Source of the DNA: Candidatus Kuenenia stuttgartensis
GTDB lineage: Bacteria; Planctomycetota; Planctomycetia; Pirellulales; UBA1268
Assembly: GCA_945891385.1 (NCBI GenBank)
Contig: CAMDDJ010000009.1
Span: 1-64,000 of the forward strand
Direction: 5' to 3'
DNA: 64,000 nt
Under the pieces are notes generated by a model that made no database searches, had not been told where the DNA came from, and saw nothing but the letters and a program-made list of their open reading frames with translations. Shown here piece after piece: positions 35,192 through 45,893 of the stretch (positions within the stretch are counted from its first letter, which is position 1; the number at the start of each line of letters is the position of its first letter). Made by a program: the position numbers and the translations under genes.

Positions 35192-35264
35192 GCCCCCATC
35201 GTCTAGTGGCCCAGGACGTCGGGTTCTCAGTCCGAAAACCGGGGTTCGACTCCCCGTGGGGGTA
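35192..35264 (+). tRNA. tRNA-Glu(CTC)
   Basis: GCCCCCATCGTCTAGTGGCCCAGGAC..., anticodon loop TTCTCAG, T arm GGGGTTCGACTCCCC, acceptor TGGGGGT. Confidence 0.95.
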
Positions 35265-35278
35265 CCTTTTTTTTGGCC

Positions 35279-36344: not shown

Positions 36345-36590
36345 ATGAAATGGAGCAGTGAGATGACAAAAGACGAGGCAAAGCAGAAGGCAGCAAAAGA
36401 AGGCGGTCTTGAGAAGAGAAAATACTTTGAGACCTACCACACGATGGCATTTCTTGGGGTGAGCGAGGGCAGGCTCAAGGAACTCCTACGAGACGGGCTG
36501 CCTCACGGGAAAATCGGTCGTAGGAACATCTACGAACGCGAACAAGTCGAAGCGTGGGCAAGTAGCAATTTTTTTTGGACAAAAGCGTAA
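36345..36590 (+). CDS. Excisionase-like HTH DNA-binding protein
   Basis: FETYHTMAFLGVSEGRLKELLRDGLPHGKIGRRNIYEREQVEAWA: winged MerR/Xis-type helix-turn-helix. Confidence 0.75.
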   Translation: MKWSSEMTKDEAKQKAAKEGGLEKRKYFETYHTMAFLGVSEGRLKELLRDGLPHGKIGRRNIYEREQVEAWASSNFFWTKA

Positions 36591-36631: not shown

Positions 36632-37870
36632 ATGAAGATTTATTCGCAGAAGGACCGCGATTCGTCAAAGATCGCTATTTACCTGAATGGGGATCGCAAA
36701 TGGTGCGGCTTCCCTCGGCAGGTGTTGCAGGACAAGAAGTTCAAGAGGCAGCTCGAGGATTGCTTCGAGGACATTGAGCTCAAGAACCACACCGGCGGAA
36801 CGTTGGAGGCGTCCACCTGGGCCACTCTCCATCGAATTGAAAAAACAAACCCGCGTGTCTTTAGAAATCTCGTTAAGTGGAATGCCATTGATCCCAGGGG
36901 TGCTGTCGCGGGAAAGGAGATGTCGCTAGCGGAGGCGTTTGAGGACTATATCGGACGCGTCTTCACAAGCCCTCGCACGATAGACAACTGGAATCAAACG
37001 AAGAGAAGGCTCATCAGCTATTTTGGCAACCAGAAAACTATTTCCGGTGTGACGTTGCTTGAGATGAAGCAGTGCTTCGCGGAATTGAGTAAGCGTTATG
37101 CGGCATCCACACTGCACAAAGACCACAAAAACGTGAAGCAGCTGTGGCGAGAGTGTTCCGATAACGGACAAATAGCCACCAATGCCTTGGCCAAGTTCAG
37201 CTACAAGGTGGATCGACAGGACTTGGTCGCACGCAAGGAGTACGTCACGGCTGCATGGTTTGATGCCGCGTTGGCTTGTATCCAATCACAACAGCAACGA
37301 GCCTTGCTGGCCTACTACAGATGGCTTGGGGCTAGGCAGAACGATCCAAAAGGGGACAACTGGGAGGATCTGGAGTTGGACCGCGATTTCCCGCGAGTAC
37401 TGCGATACGACTGCAAAAAGAAGAGAAAACTTGGTTGGTGCCCGATTCCGCCGCAAGCAGCAGCCGAGTTGCGACAGTGGCGAGAACAAGTCATCGCCAG
37501 AGAAGGGAAGGCGATCGGCCCAATTTTTCCGTGGCTATTCGGGCGTAGCAGTTCCCGCGGCCATCAGTACTACGTCAGACGAATGAATCGCAAGAAGGTG
37601 CCAGTGTGGGATAGCTTTTTCAATTCACTTCGAGCCAGCCGTTCTCGCGAGATACGTGCTCTCGAAAATGGCCGCAAGTTGGAGCAGTTGTGGATTGGGC
37701 ATAGCGAAGCAGTTGCCGATCTGCACTATGACGTGGCGAATTGCGATCAGGATCAGAAGTTCATCGAAGATCACTACTTCGAGCAAGTATGCAGACAGCC
37801 CAATAGCCAAACTCGACCGCAGACCGAATCAGGCCAGACGCCAGAAGAGCAAAAGAAAGGAGTCGCCTGA
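36632..37870 (+). CDS. Tyrosine recombinase/integrase
   Basis: 412 aa; core-binding region SPRTIDNWNQTKRRL..; RWLGARQNDP, SLRASRSREI, WIGHSEAVADLHYDV (R..R..H..Y). Confidence 0.85.
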   Translation: MKIYSQKDRDSSKIAIYLNGDRKWCGFPRQVLQDKKFKRQLEDCFEDIELKNHTGGTLEASTWATLHRIEKTNPRVFRNLVKWNAIDPRGAVAGKEMSLAEAFEDYIGRVFTSPRTIDNWNQTKRRLISYFGNQKTISGVTLLEMKQCFAELSKRYAASTLHKDHKNVKQLWRECSDNGQIATNALAKFSYKVDRQDLVARKEYVTAAWFDAALACIQSQQQRALLAYYRWLGARQNDPKGDNWEDLELDRDFPRVLRYDCKKKRKLGWCPIPPQAAAELRQWREQVIAREGKAIGPIFPWLFGRSSSRGHQYYVRRMNRKKVPVWDSFFNSLRASRSREIRALENGRKLEQLWIGHSEAVADLHYDVANCDQDQKFIEDHYFEQVCRQPNSQTRPQTESGQTPEEQKKGVA

Positions 37871-37875
37871 TAATC

Positions 37876-38169
37876 ATGAATGCAAACGAAAACGAATGGG
37901 ACAACCGCCTTGGTAGCAAGCATTGGACAGAATGGGATGAAGAGGAAATGGCGTATTTCAGGAAGAAGCAGGAGGAAAACCCGATAGACCCGCGCGAGGC
38001 AGCGATATACGCAACGCTATGCCATGCTCTTGAAGCGATCAGGCTGGAGATTCTGGAGCCGACATCTGAGATGGGGGTCGCAAATTTCGATGACATGCCC
38101 CCCCTGGTTTCCGATTGGTCTAGGAAGACCGCAAATGGCATTCTGCGTGTTCTGAATAACGCCATTTAG
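37876..38169 (+). CDS. Hypothetical island protein
   Basis: 97-aa ORF starting 6 bp after integrase stop. Confidence 0.5.
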   Translation: MNANENEWDNRLGSKHWTEWDEEEMAYFRKKQEENPIDPREAAIYATLCHALEAIRLEILEPTSEMGVANFDDMPPLVSDWSRKTANGILRVLNNAI

Positions 38170-38286: not shown

Positions 38287-39351
38287 ATGCAGGGAGGCGT
38301 CGTGGCCCACGCGGACTACTATCAGCGAACACTGGAGTGGGCTTCTCGCCTACGCGTGTGCAAGAAGTGCTGCCCAGCACCTACCGTTGCAGCGGTGACA
38401 CACGCTTTTAAAGCGGACTTGGCCGAATACTTTCGGTTGTGCGCTCTAGCAAGAAGCTCGAAGGCCCCATCTGAGCTTTCTCGTGAAGCCCATGGGCTGC
38501 TCTTCAGGTGCCGCACGCTATTGGAGAAAGCTCTGCATGAGTCCTTGGTGTGTTCAGTGCGTGACGATGATGATGCCACGACAGCGCTTTTTGCGAAAGG
38601 TTTTTTCGGCAAGAGCAAGAAGCAAGGCGTTAGTGTTCGGATGCCGCTAACGTCGTGCATTCCAACGGTTCTTTGCGGTGCGGCCTGCTACGCTCACGAT
38701 GTCCTTGATGCGACTCCGCAGTCAGTGGTCCGCGGAGCGATTAATGGCTGGCTTGCACACCTATGGGAGCATGGCGAATCCAGAACGCGTGAGAAAATCT
38801 TCCGTGTTTTGCGGAGACCGACCGAATTGGCGGTGAAAGCCGCTTTTGACGAAGTGCGGCGATTGCCCCGCGGATTCACAAGACGACCCTACATCCGATT
38901 CAGTCACGTCGGCGAAGTGGTGGCCTACGCTGGTTTCGCTAATGGCGTAGCAGCGTTGGTGAGACAACTAAGTCGAAGAAGGGTCGATTGCGTTGTCTAT
39001 ACCCGCCATCGCTATGCGGGGAGCCTCGACCCCGCGCTCTGGATAATCAATTTCACTCTGGATCCGAGTAGCGAAGAACGGCGCGCGTGGGCGCCGTCAA
39101 ATGCGAGACTCGTTTACTCAGCGTTCAGTGGGTCTATTTCTGACAACGTTGCAGTGAATTTCCTTGAGCATCACCGGCATTCCCATGTGGCCGTTTCCGC
39201 AGGTTCGGGAATCGTGTGTCCAGCTACTGCACCGGACGCGCAGGACAGAACGTGCGACGGATGTCGCTGTAAGACCTGCTTCGAGCCGGTAACCGACCTT
39301 CATGCGATAGCACCCATACCTGCCGCCGCCGTCACGGCTGAGTCGCGATAA
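38287..39351 (+). CDS. Cys-rich protein with Gp88-like motif layout (function unknown)
   Basis: SKKQGVSVRMPLTSCIPTVLCGAACYAH, IRFSHVGEV, VVYTRHR, C-terminal CPATAPDAQDRTCDGCRCKTC; possible GTG start 38302 after AGGGAGG. Confidence 0.5.
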   Translation: MQGGVVAHADYYQRTLEWASRLRVCKKCCPAPTVAAVTHAFKADLAEYFRLCALARSSKAPSELSREAHGLLFRCRTLLEKALHESLVCSVRDDDDATTALFAKGFFGKSKKQGVSVRMPLTSCIPTVLCGAACYAHDVLDATPQSVVRGAINGWLAHLWEHGESRTREKIFRVLRRPTELAVKAAFDEVRRLPRGFTRRPYIRFSHVGEVVAYAGFANGVAALVRQLSRRRVDCVVYTRHRYAGSLDPALWIINFTLDPSSEERRAWAPSNARLVYSAFSGSISDNVAVNFLEHHRHSHVAVSAGSGIVCPATAPDAQDRTCDGCRCKTCFEPVTDLHAIAPIPAAAVTAESR

Positions 39352-39360
39352 GAAACACCC

Positions 39361-40536
39361 ATGTCTGCTCCCCGAGTCCTCGACATGTTTAGCGGTTGTG
39401 GCGGCCTTTCAGTCGGCTTGTCGGAGGCTGGATTTCGTGTGCTAGGCGGCCTTGACGCAGATTGCGATGCAATCACAACGTTTAAAAAGTCGCACCCCCG
39501 GAGCCTTGGCCTGCAAGTTGATGCGAGAAGGTTCGTTGATGACTTGGATAGTTTTCTTGGGTCTACAGACGGAATCGATGTATTGGTTGGAGGACCGCCT
39601 TGCCAAGGGTTCTGCGTGATCAACCCAAAGCGATCACAAGACGATCCCCGGAACGCTTGCATTCAAGTATTTCTTGATGCCGCTCTGTCTCTGATGCCCA
39701 AGGCAATCGTCATGGAGAACGTGCCTGGCCTACTCACTCTGGCGAAGGGCTTCGCGTACAAGAAAGTCTGCGAGGTGCTCGGTTCGGCGGGATTCACAAC
39801 CTCTGCAATGGTTTTGCAGGCAGCACACTATGGTGTCCCGCAAAGTCGCTGGAGGCTCTTCATAGTGGGGCTTCGGGGGAAGCAGTTTGCGTTCCCTGAA
39901 CCTACGCATCGCGCGATGATTCGGCCGAATATTGCCGGTGGCAGAAGCATGACGATGCGAATACCTCCCGCCGATGACCTATTTACGACGCTGTTGCCCC
40001 CGGTAACGGTGGCTGATGCCATTTCGGATATGCCACCTATTCGTAATGGAGGCGGCAAGGCAGTCGCTGAGTACAGAAAAGCCGCTGCAACAGACTTTCA
40101 AGTTAATGCGAGAGCTTCTTCCGAGTCGCTGAGCAATCACCAGACGCTTCGGCTGGGTGACGCGTACATGGATCGCATCAAAGCGATTCCCAAAGAGGGG
40201 ATGTGCTGGAAGGATCTGCCTGAGGATTTGATTCCCGCAAACATCCGGCGGTCGCAAGAGAAGTGGAAGTGCGACACACCAACCCGCTTTGGGCGACTTC
40301 GGAATGACGGCCTTTTCACAACGATCCTGACACGCCCTGAGCCGTACTGGGGATCGTTCATCCATCCGTCACAGCACCGCGTCATATCAGTGCGGGAGGC
40401 AGCGCGAGCCCAAAGCTTTCCAGACCATGTGGTCTTTCAAGGTGACCTGCCGTCGCAATATCGACAGGTAGGCAACGCCATCCCACCGCTCTTGGCCAAG
40501 GTGCTTGGCAAGGCTTTGCTGCGCCAGCTGGCTTAG
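39361..40536 (+). CDS. DNA (cytosine-5) methyltransferase
   Basis: VLDMFSGCGGLSVGLSEAGF; GGPPCQGFCVIN; VMENVPGL; C-terminal RQVGNAIPPLLAKVLGKAL. Confidence 0.96.
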   Translation: MSAPRVLDMFSGCGGLSVGLSEAGFRVLGGLDADCDAITTFKKSHPRSLGLQVDARRFVDDLDSFLGSTDGIDVLVGGPPCQGFCVINPKRSQDDPRNACIQVFLDAALSLMPKAIVMENVPGLLTLAKGFAYKKVCEVLGSAGFTTSAMVLQAAHYGVPQSRWRLFIVGLRGKQFAFPEPTHRAMIRPNIAGGRSMTMRIPPADDLFTTLLPPVTVADAISDMPPIRNGGGKAVAEYRKAAATDFQVNARASSESLSNHQTLRLGDAYMDRIKAIPKEGMCWKDLPEDLIPANIRRSQEKWKCDTPTRFGRLRNDGLFTTILTRPEPYWGSFIHPSQHRVISVREAARAQSFPDHVVFQGDLPSQYRQVGNAIPPLLAKVLGKALLRQLA

Positions 40537-40559
40537 CCATTACTACATAGGTGTGAAGA

Positions 40560-43500
40560 ATGCCAACGGATAAATTTTCTACTGCCTTCAAAAACTATCG
40601 CCGAAACGCAAAGAAAGCTGTCAAGGAACATCAGCCACACGATCAGCGTCGTGCAATCTTCTATGAATTCATGAACGATGGGTTCGGCATCAAGGTCAGC
40701 GAATACGAGACGGAGCCTTTCGTAAGCCAAAGTCGAATCGATACGGGGTATATCGACCACCTTTACAACAATCTGCTAGTCGAATTCAAAAAAGACTTTG
40801 AGCGTGAGCACGCCGCAGGCATCGAAGAGATCAATCGATACTTTCGCATCGAGCCGACTGCGCAGTACGCATTCTATACCGACGTTTGTCGTTTTAGCGT
40901 CTACAAGAGGGACGGAACGGGTGTCAAGCAGATAGACGAGAAGGACATCCGCAAGTTGTCAGAGGTCGAGGCCCTGCACTTCTTTGATAGTTTCTTCTTC
41001 TCCGCCGACGCAATCGTTCCAACATCAGAAGACATCGTTACACGATTTGGGGCGAGTAGTGTCACCTACAACAGTTCCTACGAGCTTTTAGCAGCCATGT
41101 GGGGCAGGCTGTCCTCTGACCCCACTGCTCAAACGAAGTATGCCCAGTGGAACCAGCTTCTGTCGAAGGTTCATGGCAAACTTCCGAATGACCACGACTT
41201 ATTTCTCCGACACACATATCTAAGTCTTCTCGTGAAGTGTCTGGCTCTGGTGGCGCTTCCCATAGATGCGGAGCTGAGCGGGGATAAGCTCCTTGAGGTA
41301 ATCGATGGTCGCATTTTTAGAGCACATCGCTATCCGAATCTTGTTGAGGAAGATTTTTTTGCCTGGGTGTTGTCTGACGCGACCTGCGACGATGCAAGAG
41401 ACTTGCTGGCCATGCTGCTCGCGCGAATCAGAAAGTACGATCTCACTAGGATTAATGAGGACTTGCTCAAGGAGCTGTATCAGAACCTCGTTGACTCTGA
41501 GGAACGTCAGGAGTCTGGCGAGTTCTACACACCGGACTGGCTAGCAGACCTCGTCATCGCGGAGTCCGGTTACGCGGCAGCGATTGCGACAAGCGTCTCA
41601 AAGGATGAGCCACTTCCCACGCTTGTCGATCCTGCTTGTGGCTCCGGCACATTTCTTTTTCGTGCTATAGCGACGGCTCGTGCCGGTGGCGTGGCTGGTG
41701 AGGATCTTGTTCGGTATTGCTGCCAGGGTTTGATGGGAATGGATGTCCACCCGCTCGCAGTGACCATAGCGAGAATTAACTTTGTCCTTGGCCTTGCCGG
41801 TGAACTGAAAGGCTATACGGAAGATGTCTTTACCCCCGTCTACATTGCCGACGCATTGCAGGAGTTCCACAACGTAAGCGGTGGCACCAGTATCCACATT
41901 GACTCGACAGGCCCAGGATGTGCAACAGCAGCGGCTGATCCGTTTTCCATTCCCGTTGCTCTGGCCACCAACCGCGAGTTGTTTGATCAGATTATCGATC
42001 TCATGCAAAGCTTTTCGTCGCATGTGGGCAAGATGCCAAGCATCACTGATGGGTTCTGGAAGGCGGCATTGCGGCTCGGCGCGGACCCGTCGTGGCAAGC
42101 GGAGCTGGTGGCTAATTGCCGTCTACTGACTACCCATGTGAGGAAGAAAACTGATTCCATTTGGGGCTATGTGCTACGCAACTGCTCACAGCCAGCGTTT
42201 CTTCGTGCAACCAAAGCAGACTTTATTGTGGGCAATCCGCCCTGGAAGGCCCTGCGGAACATCAGCCACAAGGCTTACCAAGAGGCGATCAAGAAGCAAA
42301 TTATTCGCCATGGCTTGCTAAGCAAGCACGACAAAACTCTCTTTGGAAGTATGGAGGTGTGCACACTGTTTTTCGCCGTGTGCGAAACGGATTACCTCAA
42401 GCCGGGCGGAGTCGTTTCTTTTATCTTGAATCGAAGCATGTTGAGCGGCGCTGCTCAGCACGACGTTTTCCGAAGTAGCGGTTTTAGTTCGCTTATCGAC
42501 GGAAAGTCCATCTTTACAAAGAAGAAGAAGCAAGGGATTTTCCCAATGCCCTTCTGCGTTGCGACAAGGTGCCATGCTACGGCAAGGAAGACGGATATTC
42601 CGTTCACTGAGATTTCCGGGCGAGTGCCTCGGGGAAATCCAAGTCTTGAAACGGTTGCGCCCGATCTCATGCGCACAACAAGTAGATATTCGCCGCCACA
42701 GCCGCTCGGGCCACCGACTTTTTACAGTAGCCGCATACAGCAAGGCGCGACGATTACGCCAATGGCTTTCTGGTACGTCCAGCTGAGAAGTGTAGTGCCG
42801 AAGAAGGAAACGGCTCCAGTGCCGGTGGAATCCAAGCCAGAAATAAGCGAAGGTGGTAAAGAGCCGTGGAGAGGAAGGCACTTCACGGGAGTGTGTGAGC
42901 GTCAATTTCTGTACGCCACTCTTCGCGGAGACAACTACGTTCCCTTTGCGGTCCTCGATTACGACTTGGTGATTGCGCCTATTGTTCTGGCAGATGCCAA
43001 GAACACCGTGCTCACGTTGCCCCGCGCAGTGAAGGAAGGCTACGCCAGCATCGCTGCATGGATGAAGCAGATCCAAGAAGTGTGGGTTAAGCACAAGAAG
43101 CCCGCGTCTCCCAAGGACGTTGTTGAACGCATCAACAAATATCGGTTGCTCGAAAAGCAGAATCCACAACGAGGGTTTAAGGTCATCATCAACAAGTCTG
43201 GCACGAATATCGCTTCTGTGGTCATTAACGCGGCTGAGGTCGTAGGCTTGCCAGTGCGTGGAGTGGGGGTGATGGGCTTTGTTGCCGACACGCAAACCTA
43301 CATCTACTCGACTGAAAGCCGTGAGGAAGCCCACTACCTTTGCGCGGCTCTTAATTCAGCGACGGTTAACGATGCGGTTAAGCCCTACCAGAGCGCCGGG
43401 GAGCAGGGTGAACGTGATCTGCACACCAAGGCGCTCCGAGCGTCGCCGGTCCCGCGCTTTTCGCCCGCTAATCCCGACCACGTTAAGCTCGCGGAGCTCA

Positions 43501-43697
43501 GTGTCGCCTGCCATGAGCAAGTTGCGGCCAAGATTCCTGAACTACTAACGTTATCAGCAAACCAACGTAGGACATTTTGCAGGAAGGAGGTCTCTGTCTT
43601 ACTGGGCGAGATCGACACGCTAACGAAGCGTATTCTCGCGAGTGATGCTGGGGCAAGCCTTAGTGGCGAGGTGCCAATGACGTTGTTCGCAGAATAG
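40560..43697 (+). CDS. Type IIG-like restriction enzyme/N6-adenine methyltransferase fusion
   Basis: N-terminal RIDTGYIDHLYNNLLVEFKKDF (PD-(D/E)xK-like), DPACGSGTFLFRA motif I, FIVGNPPWKAL motif IV, C-terminal specificity-like region. Confidence 0.87.
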   Translation: MPTDKFSTAFKNYRRNAKKAVKEHQPHDQRRAIFYEFMNDGFGIKVSEYETEPFVSQSRIDTGYIDHLYNNLLVEFKKDFEREHAAGIEEINRYFRIEPTAQYAFYTDVCRFSVYKRDGTGVKQIDEKDIRKLSEVEALHFFDSFFFSADAIVPTSEDIVTRFGASSVTYNSSYELLAAMWGRLSSDPTAQTKYAQWNQLLSKVHGKLPNDHDLFLRHTYLSLLVKCLALVALPIDAELSGDKLLEVIDGRIFRAHRYPNLVEEDFFAWVLSDATCDDARDLLAMLLARIRKYDLTRINEDLLKELYQNLVDSEERQESGEFYTPDWLADLVIAESGYAAAIATSVSKDEPLPTLVDPACGSGTFLFRAIATARAGGVAGEDLVRYCCQGLMGMDVHPLAVTIARINFVLGLAGELKGYTEDVFTPVYIADALQEFHNVSGGTSIHIDSTGPGCATAAADPFSIPVALATNRELFDQIIDLMQSFSSHVGKMPSITDGFWKAALRLGADPSWQAELVANCRLLTTHVRKKTDSIWGYVLRNCSQPAFLRATKADFIVGNPPWKALRNISHKAYQEAIKKQIIRHGLLSKHDKTLFGSMEVCTLFFAVCETDYLKPGGVVSFILNRSMLSGAAQHDVFRSSGFSSLIDGKSIFTKKKKQGIFPMPFCVATRCHATARKTDIPFTEISGRVPRGNPSLETVAPDLMRTTSRYSPPQPLGPPTFYSSRIQQGATITPMAFWYVQLRSVVPKKETAPVPVESKPEISEGGKEPWRGRHFTGVCERQFLYATLRGDNYVPFAVLDYDLVIAPIVLADAKNTVLTLPRAVKEGYASIAAWMKQIQEVWVKHKKPASPKDVVERINKYRLLEKQNPQRGFKVIINKSGTNIASVVINAAEVVGLPVRGVGVMGFVADTQTYIYSTESREEAHYLCAALNSATVNDAVKPYQSAGEQGERDLHTKALRASPVPRFSPANPDHVKLAELSVACHEQVAAKIPELLTLSANQRRTFCRKEVSVLLGEIDTLTKRILASDAGASLSGEVPMTLFAE

Positions 43698-44192
43698 GAA
43701 TGTCATTCTAGGTGGCAAAACGAACGGCGCCCCAATCATTCTTTTCTTAGGAAACCATTCCTAGACCACTCCCCTCCAAAAATGAAGGAGAGTGTCGGAT
43801 CTTTTCTTGAGGTTTCCCCGTACTGAGCCGACTTGCAAGCCTTTCTTTGGGAGTTGCTTGTTTCTAACCCCTACTCCCTCATTTGCTTTTCTTCGTCTCC
43901 GCCCGGACAGTGGACAACACGGCAGCAACGATGCGGGCTTTCACCGCGAAATGACCAATGAAATATGAATCGCTCAAAAATGCCTTATGGCTTCATCATT
44001 TGTTTGTGTCCGCAGCACACGAGTCGGTTGACGATGGACCGGATGGCAAGCTGAGCCTCTATATCTCTAGTACACCAAACTCATAAAAAACCAAGCGGAT
44101 TCACACGCTAACAAAAAAACGCTTAATCCTGAGCGGATGGTGTATCTCCTTATGTGCTGAAGATGGCACGAATTTCAACAAGGAGAAAAAAG

Positions 44193-44486
44193 ATGAATGC
44201 GCAGACGTTTCTGGCCGCAAATGTGGCCAATGTGATCTATGAGGATGGACGAAAGTGCGAATGGTGGCCCTTCGAGTCGAGGGCCGCATTTGACGATTTC
44301 TTGCACAGCCGTCCGATTCGGCTACGCGGAGCAGGAACGCACCTGATCGTGGGCCTAGATCAGAATCGTGAAATCGTGGTGCGAGAGTTGGAAAGCATCA
44401 CCGATGCGGGCGACGTCACGCAGGATGCGTTCATCGTCTCATACGCGCAGCTGACTGAAAGGGTTATCCATGAGTACGTTTCGTGA
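44193..44486 (+). CDS. Small hypothetical protein of island cassette
   Basis: ATG 44193 preceded by AAGGAG SD; overlaps next ORF by 17 nt. Confidence 0.6.
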   Translation: MNAQTFLAANVANVIYEDGRKCEWWPFESRAAFDDFLHSRPIRLRGAGTHLIVGLDQNREIVVRELESITDAGDVTQDAFIVSYAQLTERVIHEYVS

Positions 44487-44754
44487 GTCCGCATTTTTCA
44501 ACAAGAGTGAGCTTGTGAGGCTCGTCTATAGGGATAATCCGTCTGCGTCAAATTCTGAAATCCGGCACGCAGTAAAACAGCGATGGAACGTAGATGTTGC
44601 CGCGAACCTGATAATCCAGGCGGTCGGCCGGGAACGCGACCGCGTTGCATATCTGGCGTCGCATTCATCACTCCAGAAACTGGCCAAGAAGTTCCTCAGT
44701 GACTGTGGCGGAAATCTTTCCATCGCGATCAATCATCTAAGGCTCGCTGGATAG
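44470..44754 (+). CDS. Small putative HTH protein of island cassette
   Basis: FNKSELVRLVYRDNPSASNSEIRHAVKQRWNVDVAANLIIQAVGRERDR helical, HTH-like pattern. Confidence 0.55.
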   Translation: MSTFRESAFFNKSELVRLVYRDNPSASNSEIRHAVKQRWNVDVAANLIIQAVGRERDRVAYLASHSSLQKLAKKFLSDCGGNLSIAINHLRLAG

Positions 44755-44762
44755 GGCATCTC

Positions 44763-45458
44763 ATGGACTTGCACGCCCAACACGCAAACCTAAGGCTCGC
44801 GCCTGATTTGATTGATGACTACCTGTGGCTTCAGAAAACGTACAAGGACGCCCAAGAGGAATATCGGCGCAAGACGCCCCCAATAAGGCGTTTGCATAAG
44901 TTGATCAAGAATCATTGCGTTCCCGCGAAGACGCGTGCGTGGCACTTTCTTGAGAATGTGTGGGTGTGGAATGATGCAGTTGTGTTTGAGTTAGAGAAGG
45001 CGTGGTGGGACGATGTGCCTACAAGCGGTGACTGGCTGGCATATCTCCGTCGAATGTATGTTGTCGATTCAAAGAGGTCGTGTGGCTACGGATCGCAGTT
45101 CATCGACAATCTACTCCAGTGGTGTCAGGAGTCGGGGGCAGTGGTGTGCTTGGTGAGCCTTCTGTTTGGATTGTCGCGAAATGCCATCGACAGAGGTCCG
45201 TTCTTTTTTGAAACGATAGAGGATGTCTTGGGCGTCTGGGAGAAGGGTGAGATTCATCCTGTTGTCGGAGGGGAATGGTTGCGAGACTGGTATGTGAGCA
45301 AAGGGTTCCGAAGAGGCAAGCTCTTGGATGGCGACTTTTTTGGCTTTCAATCCTGCATCAGTCATCTTGACCAGTTTGTCTTTGTTCCCGATTCCTTGGA
45401 CGGCTCAGCTAAACTAGCGGCATCGCACCGCCTCCGCGATGAGTCGCCCGATGAGTGA
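44763..45458 (+). CDS. GNAT acetyltransferase-like protein
   Basis: RRMYVVDSKRSCGYGSQFIDNLLQWCQESGAVVCLVSLL (acetyl-CoA loop-like) and LRDWYVSKGFRRG. Confidence 0.6.
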   Translation: MDLHAQHANLRLAPDLIDDYLWLQKTYKDAQEEYRRKTPPIRRLHKLIKNHCVPAKTRAWHFLENVWVWNDAVVFELEKAWWDDVPTSGDWLAYLRRMYVVDSKRSCGYGSQFIDNLLQWCQESGAVVCLVSLLFGLSRNAIDRGPFFFETIEDVLGVWEKGEIHPVVGGEWLRDWYVSKGFRRGKLLDGDFFGFQSCISHLDQFVFVPDSLDGSAKLAASHRLRDESPDE

Positions 45459-45893
45459 TCTGACAGGAGCAGCCGATGGCTTATTGCCTCCGCATCAGGT
45501 GCTGTGAGGGCAGGGGGCTTTAAAAACACATCGCCTTGAACCGGGAACCGCTAAATGAAGTCGAAATGAGCGGAAATATGAGCGATGGCCAGGGGATCGT
45601 CCCTATCGCAACTGAACCACCGCGGCCGCCTGGGATGGCCGATAAGTTCGTGCAAAAACAGACAAACCCCCATACGTCTTCCGGCGGCGTGCGATGCCCG
45701 CTTCTCTGGAACAGATTTGGAACGGCAGGCATGGGTGGGGGTGAGGCAGAATGGCTCAAGGCGGCTCGTCAATCGCACGTTTTCAGGGATGCGTGGCTCT
45801 CTTTGCTGTGTCGTGGCTATAGCTGCCCAATCGAAAAAACTCGAAGAAAATTCGCGTGTACCGCCCGTGGGGGTACTCGCCATATTGGCTACA

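Follow-up and report, generated by a model that had tools for sequence, protein, structure and literature searches.

A remote GP88 homologue recurs beside Dcm-type methyltransferases and may act on the 5-methylcytosine mark

Why should a gene for a cysteine-rich protein lie directly ahead of a cytosine methyltransferase gene and a restriction enzyme gene? The question is raised by a locus at 38287-43697 on the plus strand of the window, the window being the whole 64,000-nucleotide stretch analysed here (contig CAMDDJ010000009.1, positions 1 to 64,000). The locus contains three co-directional genes with intergenic gaps of 9 and 23 nucleotides (nt). Gene 1 (38287..39351, +) encodes a 354-amino-acid (aa) Cys-rich protein of the GP88 superfamily, extended at its N-terminus by a helical part of about 100 aa, gene 2 (39361..40536, +) a predicted 391-aa Dcm-family DNA cytosine-5 methyltransferase, and gene 3 (40560..43697, +) a predicted 1045-aa type IIG restriction enzyme/N6-adenine methyltransferase. 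An earlier note on this DNA had described these genes, whose positions, strands and gaps proved exact, and had proposed that gene 1 resembles phage Gp88 proteins and is an added, undescribed component of a restriction-modification (R-M) module built on the Dcm and type IIG pair. We found that gene 1 is a Dcm-linked component: that it is a recurrent, undescribed part of methylation-based defence modules is well supported, and its partner is the 5-methylcytosine (5mC) methyltransferase, not the Dcm and type IIG pair.

Relatives were found by scanning 84,980 species genomes and IMG/VR, without using neighbouring genes, for DNA that encodes P-L-x-x-C-x-P-x3-C-x3-C-Y-A; this is the first conserved Cys motif of gene 1 (C124/C130/C134; coding DNA at 38644..38693, +). 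Eight of the relatives that the scan yielded are long like gene 1 (about 350 aa, several of them cut by contig ends); it also yielded seven loci with short relatives, and phage GP88s. The nine long proteins, window included, align over almost their entire length, and because the relatives of gene 1 are 32-54% identical with nearly the whole length aligned, gene 1 is a real gene. Used alone as a query, it found no close relatives in phages, plasmids, IMG/VR or GTDB genomes, and three of its relatives used as queries had no match on plasmids or in E. coli. Extra genomes from three host groups gave zero new long members, which indicates that the long family is rare.

The long gene-1 protein directly adjoins a Dcm-family gene in six of six informative loci (the window, L069, L071, L072, L076 and L091), meaning those where the relevant flank is visible; at L070, L085 and L092 that side is truncated or chimeric. 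In all six the two reading frames overlap or lie no more than about 10 nt apart. A neighbourhood census thus places the protein beside Dcm at five loci besides the window, and the rest of each locus differs. In an Akkermansia-labelled metagenome-assembled genome (MAG; L069, laid out as L113) the order is DUF262-like, DrmD-like helicase, type III Mod, Res, Dcm, gene 1. In a Polynucleobacter MAG (L071, as L112) it is HKD+Snf2, IIG, Dcm, gene 1, and in an Opitutaceae MAG (L076, as L117) DrmD-like, IIG/DrmMI-like, Dcm, gene 1. An Oxalobacteraceae MAG (L091, as L115) has HKD+Snf2, DUF4391, Mod, Res, Dcm, gene 1. The isolate Desulfosediminicola flagellatus IMCC35005 (L072, as L114) has DruE-like, DpdE/DrmD-like helicase, DrmMI/IIG-like, Dcm, gene 1 and an HhH-GPD glycosylase, followed by McrB-like AAA/EVE and McrC. 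The restriction backbone therefore varies by locus among type III Mod/Res, type IIG, and DrmMI-like methyltransferases with SNF2 or DruE helicases, while adjacency to Dcm spans at least three Dcm subfamilies and four phyla. There was no Dcm at 17 viral motif loci (mostly phage GP88s) or at the loci of short GP88-like proteins.

This adjacency in defence clusters suggests that defence modules based on cytosine methylation have a working part not recognised before, gene 1. The proposal of an added R-M component thus held as far as module membership goes, but the specific tie to a Dcm and type IIG pair did not, since some relatives stand with type III Mod/Res, with DrmMI-like methyltransferases and helicases, or with a DruE helicase in place of a type IIG enzyme. 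Full-length relatives of gene 3 occur on plasmids and in Planctomycetota (25-33% identity; one is annotated as BseRI-like), and neither a Dcm nor a gene-1 neighbour was present at the 12 Planctomycetota and several plasmid loci sampled, so the idea that gene 1 is a part of the IIG enzyme was rejected. The dependence on Dcm is one-way: gene 1 requires Dcm and Dcm does not require gene 1, because the long gene 1 stands beside Dcm at every informative locus, while the plasmid genes most like gene 2 (about 40% identity) are without it. That gene 1 is a passenger, adjacent by chance or by shared hitch-hiking, is very improbable: the loci are few and unrelated genes do collect in defence islands, but chance would have to account for six of six informative loci across those Dcm subfamilies, phyla and changing neighbours.

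The assignments of the other two genes rest on their motifs and profile matches, and both agree with the earlier reading. Genes 2 and 3 are the two METHYLTRANSFERASES of the locus. Gene 2 matches PF00145 (E 1.1e-51) and has the PCQ (as PPCQGF), ENV and QxRxR motifs of DNA cytosine-5 methyltransferases, so with its catalytic motifs intact it reads as a canonical Dcm-type 5mC methyltransferase. Gene 3 matches N6_Mtase/Eco57I and the PADLOC model REase_MTase_IIG (E 5e-76). It carries DPACGSGTF and NPPW (N6 methyltransferase motifs I and IV), an N-terminal PD-ExK-like stretch with VEFKK and a C-terminal specificity region in one chain, which by these features makes it a type IIG restriction enzyme-methyltransferase whose nuclease is predicted.

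Gene 1 itself was harder to place. A hidden Markov model (HMM) search of the 354-aa protein gave no direct family: there were zero Pfam families at E<=10, PF17338 (GP88, phage gene product 88) included, and searches of PADLOC, PHROGs and NCBIfam gave a single match, at a chance-level E of 0.078. Its sequence profiles had no match in the PDB. The GP88 link came through profiles and relatives. Among 392 Planctomycetota genomes, a weak match of gene 1 (L009, 230 aa) itself matches PF17338 with E 1.7e-4, just under the curated cut-off, and a profile search built after L009 turned up more short relatives. PF17338 is matched directly by two of the nine long members (best E 1.1e-5), and profile-profile comparison (hhalign) of gene 1 with phage GP88s gave E 1.5e-7 and a probability of 94%. 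Together with significant fold matches and conserved cysteines, these results show that gene 1 is a remote GP88 homologue, as its resemblance to Gp88 had suggested. Five other candidates, L008 (a short chance match in a 5mC methyltransferase-like open reading frame) and L010-L013 (weak matches), were dismissed as chance.

Seven cysteines are kept in the relatives, C124/C130/C134 and the C-terminal C311/C323/C328/C331 (coding DNA of the latter motif at 39217..39279, +), and the N-terminal C25/C28/C29 are not conserved. Gene 1, its relatives and the GP88s have in common C124, C130, C134, Y135, A136, R204, G209, T239 and C311; C323, C328, C331 and K112 are nearly universal among GP88-type relatives. 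The long branch adds invariant H137, D138, D141, H207, E210, R240, H241 and E294-H295-H296. Gene 1 is thus like GP88 in its PxxxC-x-P-x3-C-x3-CYA motif, four C-terminal Cys, R..G and (Y/F)T(R/K) motifs and fold, and differs from it in escaping the PF17338 model, in its extra N-terminal helical domain of about 100 aa, in the added invariant HD, H.GE, RH and EHH, and in its tie to Dcm methyltransferases. DUF5131 (PF07505, phage Gp37/Gp68) is matched by the same GP88 model and has a Cys motif that also ends in CYA, but its spacing is C-x6-C-x2-C and the four-Cys C-terminal motif was not seen in it. At L017 and L019 both Pfam models, that for GP88 and that for DUF5131, match the same proteins, suggesting one superfamily. 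A short GP88-like branch (about 230 aa; L061/L068, L062/L080, L075, L077, L078 and L073, from Planctomycetota, Opitutaceae and a Thaumarchaeota-labelled MAG) is not beside methyltransferases, and one short copy precedes a CHAT-domain protein.

What might the protein do? AlphaFold2 modelled the full-length protein with a pLDDT (predicted local distance difference test) of 83 and a pTM (predicted template-modelling score) of 0.85; the model of the core has a pLDDT of 89 and a pTM of 0.88, a confident prediction, and is alpha/beta barrel-like. In a Foldseek comparison with BFVD, the only significant matches of the gene-1 model were two phage GP88 models (E 2.6e-6 and 3.8e-5). The three-Cys loop follows the first barrel strand of the model, the segment RFSHVGE follows the second, and the four-Cys tail comes last. 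Radical S-adenosylmethionine (radical-SAM) enzymes have their parts in the order cluster loop, GGE motif, auxiliary cluster, and the order in gene 1 is the same. When the core was compared with the PDB, the top matches were all barrels, led by the radical-SAM enzyme ChlB, with TYW1, anSME and BlsE within the top 15.

By comparing gene 1 between loci, it is possible to ask whether it follows the target of its partner. Its divergence shows no significant correlation with the Dcm subfamily (r 0.32, Mantel p 0.175; r -0.07 without the outlier L091), and it remains 38-46% identical between loci whose Dcms share only about 30%. This independence disfavours a role in target specificity, and is what would be expected of one chemistry used across different target specificities.

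Taken together, these observations lead us, tentatively, to favour a mobile R-M module whose core would be a Dcm 5mC methyltransferase and a dedicated GP88-superfamily iron-sulphur, radical-SAM-like enzyme acting on the 5mC mark. Dcm and gene 1 would form a two-gene unit joined, from one bacterium to the next, to restriction backbones of various kinds; in the window the backbone is a type IIG enzyme. C124, C130 and C134 may hold an iron-sulphur cluster in the loop past the first barrel strand, with the RFSHVGE segment past the second strand taking the part of the GGE motif and the C-terminal four-Cys site perhaps holding a second metal. On this view the gene-1 protein would work on the mark that Dcm leaves in the DNA, most probably turning 5mC at the Dcm sites into a further-modified base, which could serve as a self-mark or a signal.

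Several points weigh against this proposal. None of the PDB fold matches is significant (best E 0.054), and many barrels that are not radical-SAM enzymes score alike. The cysteines of gene 1 are spaced C-x5-C-x3-C, which is not the canonical radical-SAM C-x3-C-x2-C. No sequence method linked gene 1 to radical SAM, although a profile-profile comparison with a radical-SAM alignment was not made, and no account of GP88 function was found in the literature searched. The informative loci number only six, and most relatives come from MAGs. Because the order of motifs fits, whereas the PDB matches are not significant and the Cys spacing is non-canonical, the iron-sulphur, radical-SAM-like reading is favoured but unproven.

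It may instead be that gene 1 safeguards the 5mC methyltransferase as a Vsr-like repair or quality factor for T:G mismatches or other damage at methylated cytosines, which we consider unlikely. Vsr is the classical neighbour of Dcm, and a very short patch repair gene (Vsr) lies beside a plasmid relative of the window Dcm (L127), while a domain search of the window island's proteins found no Vsr there; a repair role would also fit the independence of gene 1 from Dcm subfamily. But a 238-aa HhH-GPD base-excision repair protein is encoded directly after gene 1 in the D. flagellatus locus, by the EVE/McrB-like and McrC genes (L114:5335-6048, -), so base-excision repair is already supplied there, the gene-1 fold is not Vsr-like, and phage and bacterial GP88 relatives have the same Cys site without Dcm. 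The Dcm-Vsr pair is comparable in that a second small gene is tied to a 5mC methyltransferase, and differs in that gene 1 has another fold and no Vsr similarity.

A metal-containing regulator or DNA-binding adaptor, controller-like and setting the expression or targeting of Dcm and the restriction enzyme, is also rather improbable. R-M operons commonly contain controller genes, and gene 1 is both Cys-rich and tightly coupled to the methyltransferase gene. However, neither HMM searches nor the fold revealed a helix-turn-helix (HTH) or other DNA-binding domain in it, the invariant K112, H137, D138, D141, R204, H207, E210, R240, H241 and EHH294-296 look catalytic, and the predicted fold is barrel-shaped, unlike a small finger domain.

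The possibility that gene 1 is the cognate restriction endonuclease of Dcm, so that two separate R-M systems stand side by side, fares worse and is quite unlikely. Its size and immediate adjacency resemble an R-M pair, and the three inspected plasmid relatives of gene 2 (L126, L127 and L128) adjoin Cys-rich NotI-family endonucleases. Gene 1 is not homologous to those proteins (hhalign probability 0.2%), on which ground a NotI-like identity was rejected; it has no nuclease domain by HMM or fold, and unlike a sequence-specific endonuclease it does not track Dcm type. The same plasmid pairing weakens the idea that the locus is of the HphI type, in which 5mC and N6-methyladenine (m6A) enzymes protect both strands of one asymmetric site.

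The module can also be compared with known systems. Type IIG systems can have accompanying methyltransferases, one for Eco57I and two for BpuSI (PMC4081073). The window locus shares with them a single-chain IIG enzyme and a separate methyltransferase in one operon; it differs in carrying gene 1 and in that its added methyltransferase is a 5mC enzyme linked to gene 1, not to the IIG enzyme. Some gene-1 loci elsewhere resemble DISARM or Druantia in having DrmD-, DrmMI- or DruE-like proteins with a 5mC methyltransferase, but the PADLOC models of these systems include no gene-1 homologue, and the window locus is without a helicase: no DrmA/DrmB or DruE-type helicase was found among the island's open reading frames.

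To our knowledge, GP88 has been described only as a family of phage proteins, with no function assigned. The branch that strictly accompanies 5mC methyltransferases is a first functional context for these proteins, and points to a methylation-based defence component that PADLOC, Pfam and NCBIfam miss. A wider and more doubtful proposal is that this is bacterial self-marking, in which Dcm and the GP88-like iron-sulphur enzyme would jointly make a hypermodified cytosine in host DNA, with type IIG, type III and DISARM/Druantia-like systems each drawing on the same two-gene cassette. Should gene 1 modify DNA, the outcome would be a further modified base that bacteria make to defend themselves, and one invisible to m6A-centred methylome surveys.

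The segment from about 35.2 to 45.9 kb is very probably an integrated island. Its GC content is about 52-56%, against about 69% in the surrounding Planctomycetota chromosome, and its left edge is a tRNA-Glu gene (35192..35266, +), a probable attachment site. A small HTH_17, excisionase-like protein follows (36345..36590, +; E 3.3e-5, just under the curated cut-off), then a tyrosine-recombinase-like integrase (36632..37870, +), assigned by residue pattern since its Pfam matches are not significant. The candidate right attachment site is the 13-nt CCCGTGGGGGTAC (45864..45876, +), identical to the tRNA-Glu 3' end at 35253-35265; it is weak as a lone repeat, but coincides with the step where GC rises again. 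The low GC, the tRNA, the two mobility-type genes and the tRNA-end copy together support the island.

At the start of one Klebsiella-labelled MAG contig (L085:1-330), a thiolase-like sequence runs in frame into gene 1, and DruE comes next; the join is probably an assembly chimaera. In the window, a 97-aa protein without known family lies between the integrase-like gene and gene 1 (37876-38169). Downstream, at 44154-45458, are three small island genes of 110, 94 and 231 aa, of which the first two have no family and the 231-aa one is weakly GNAT-like.

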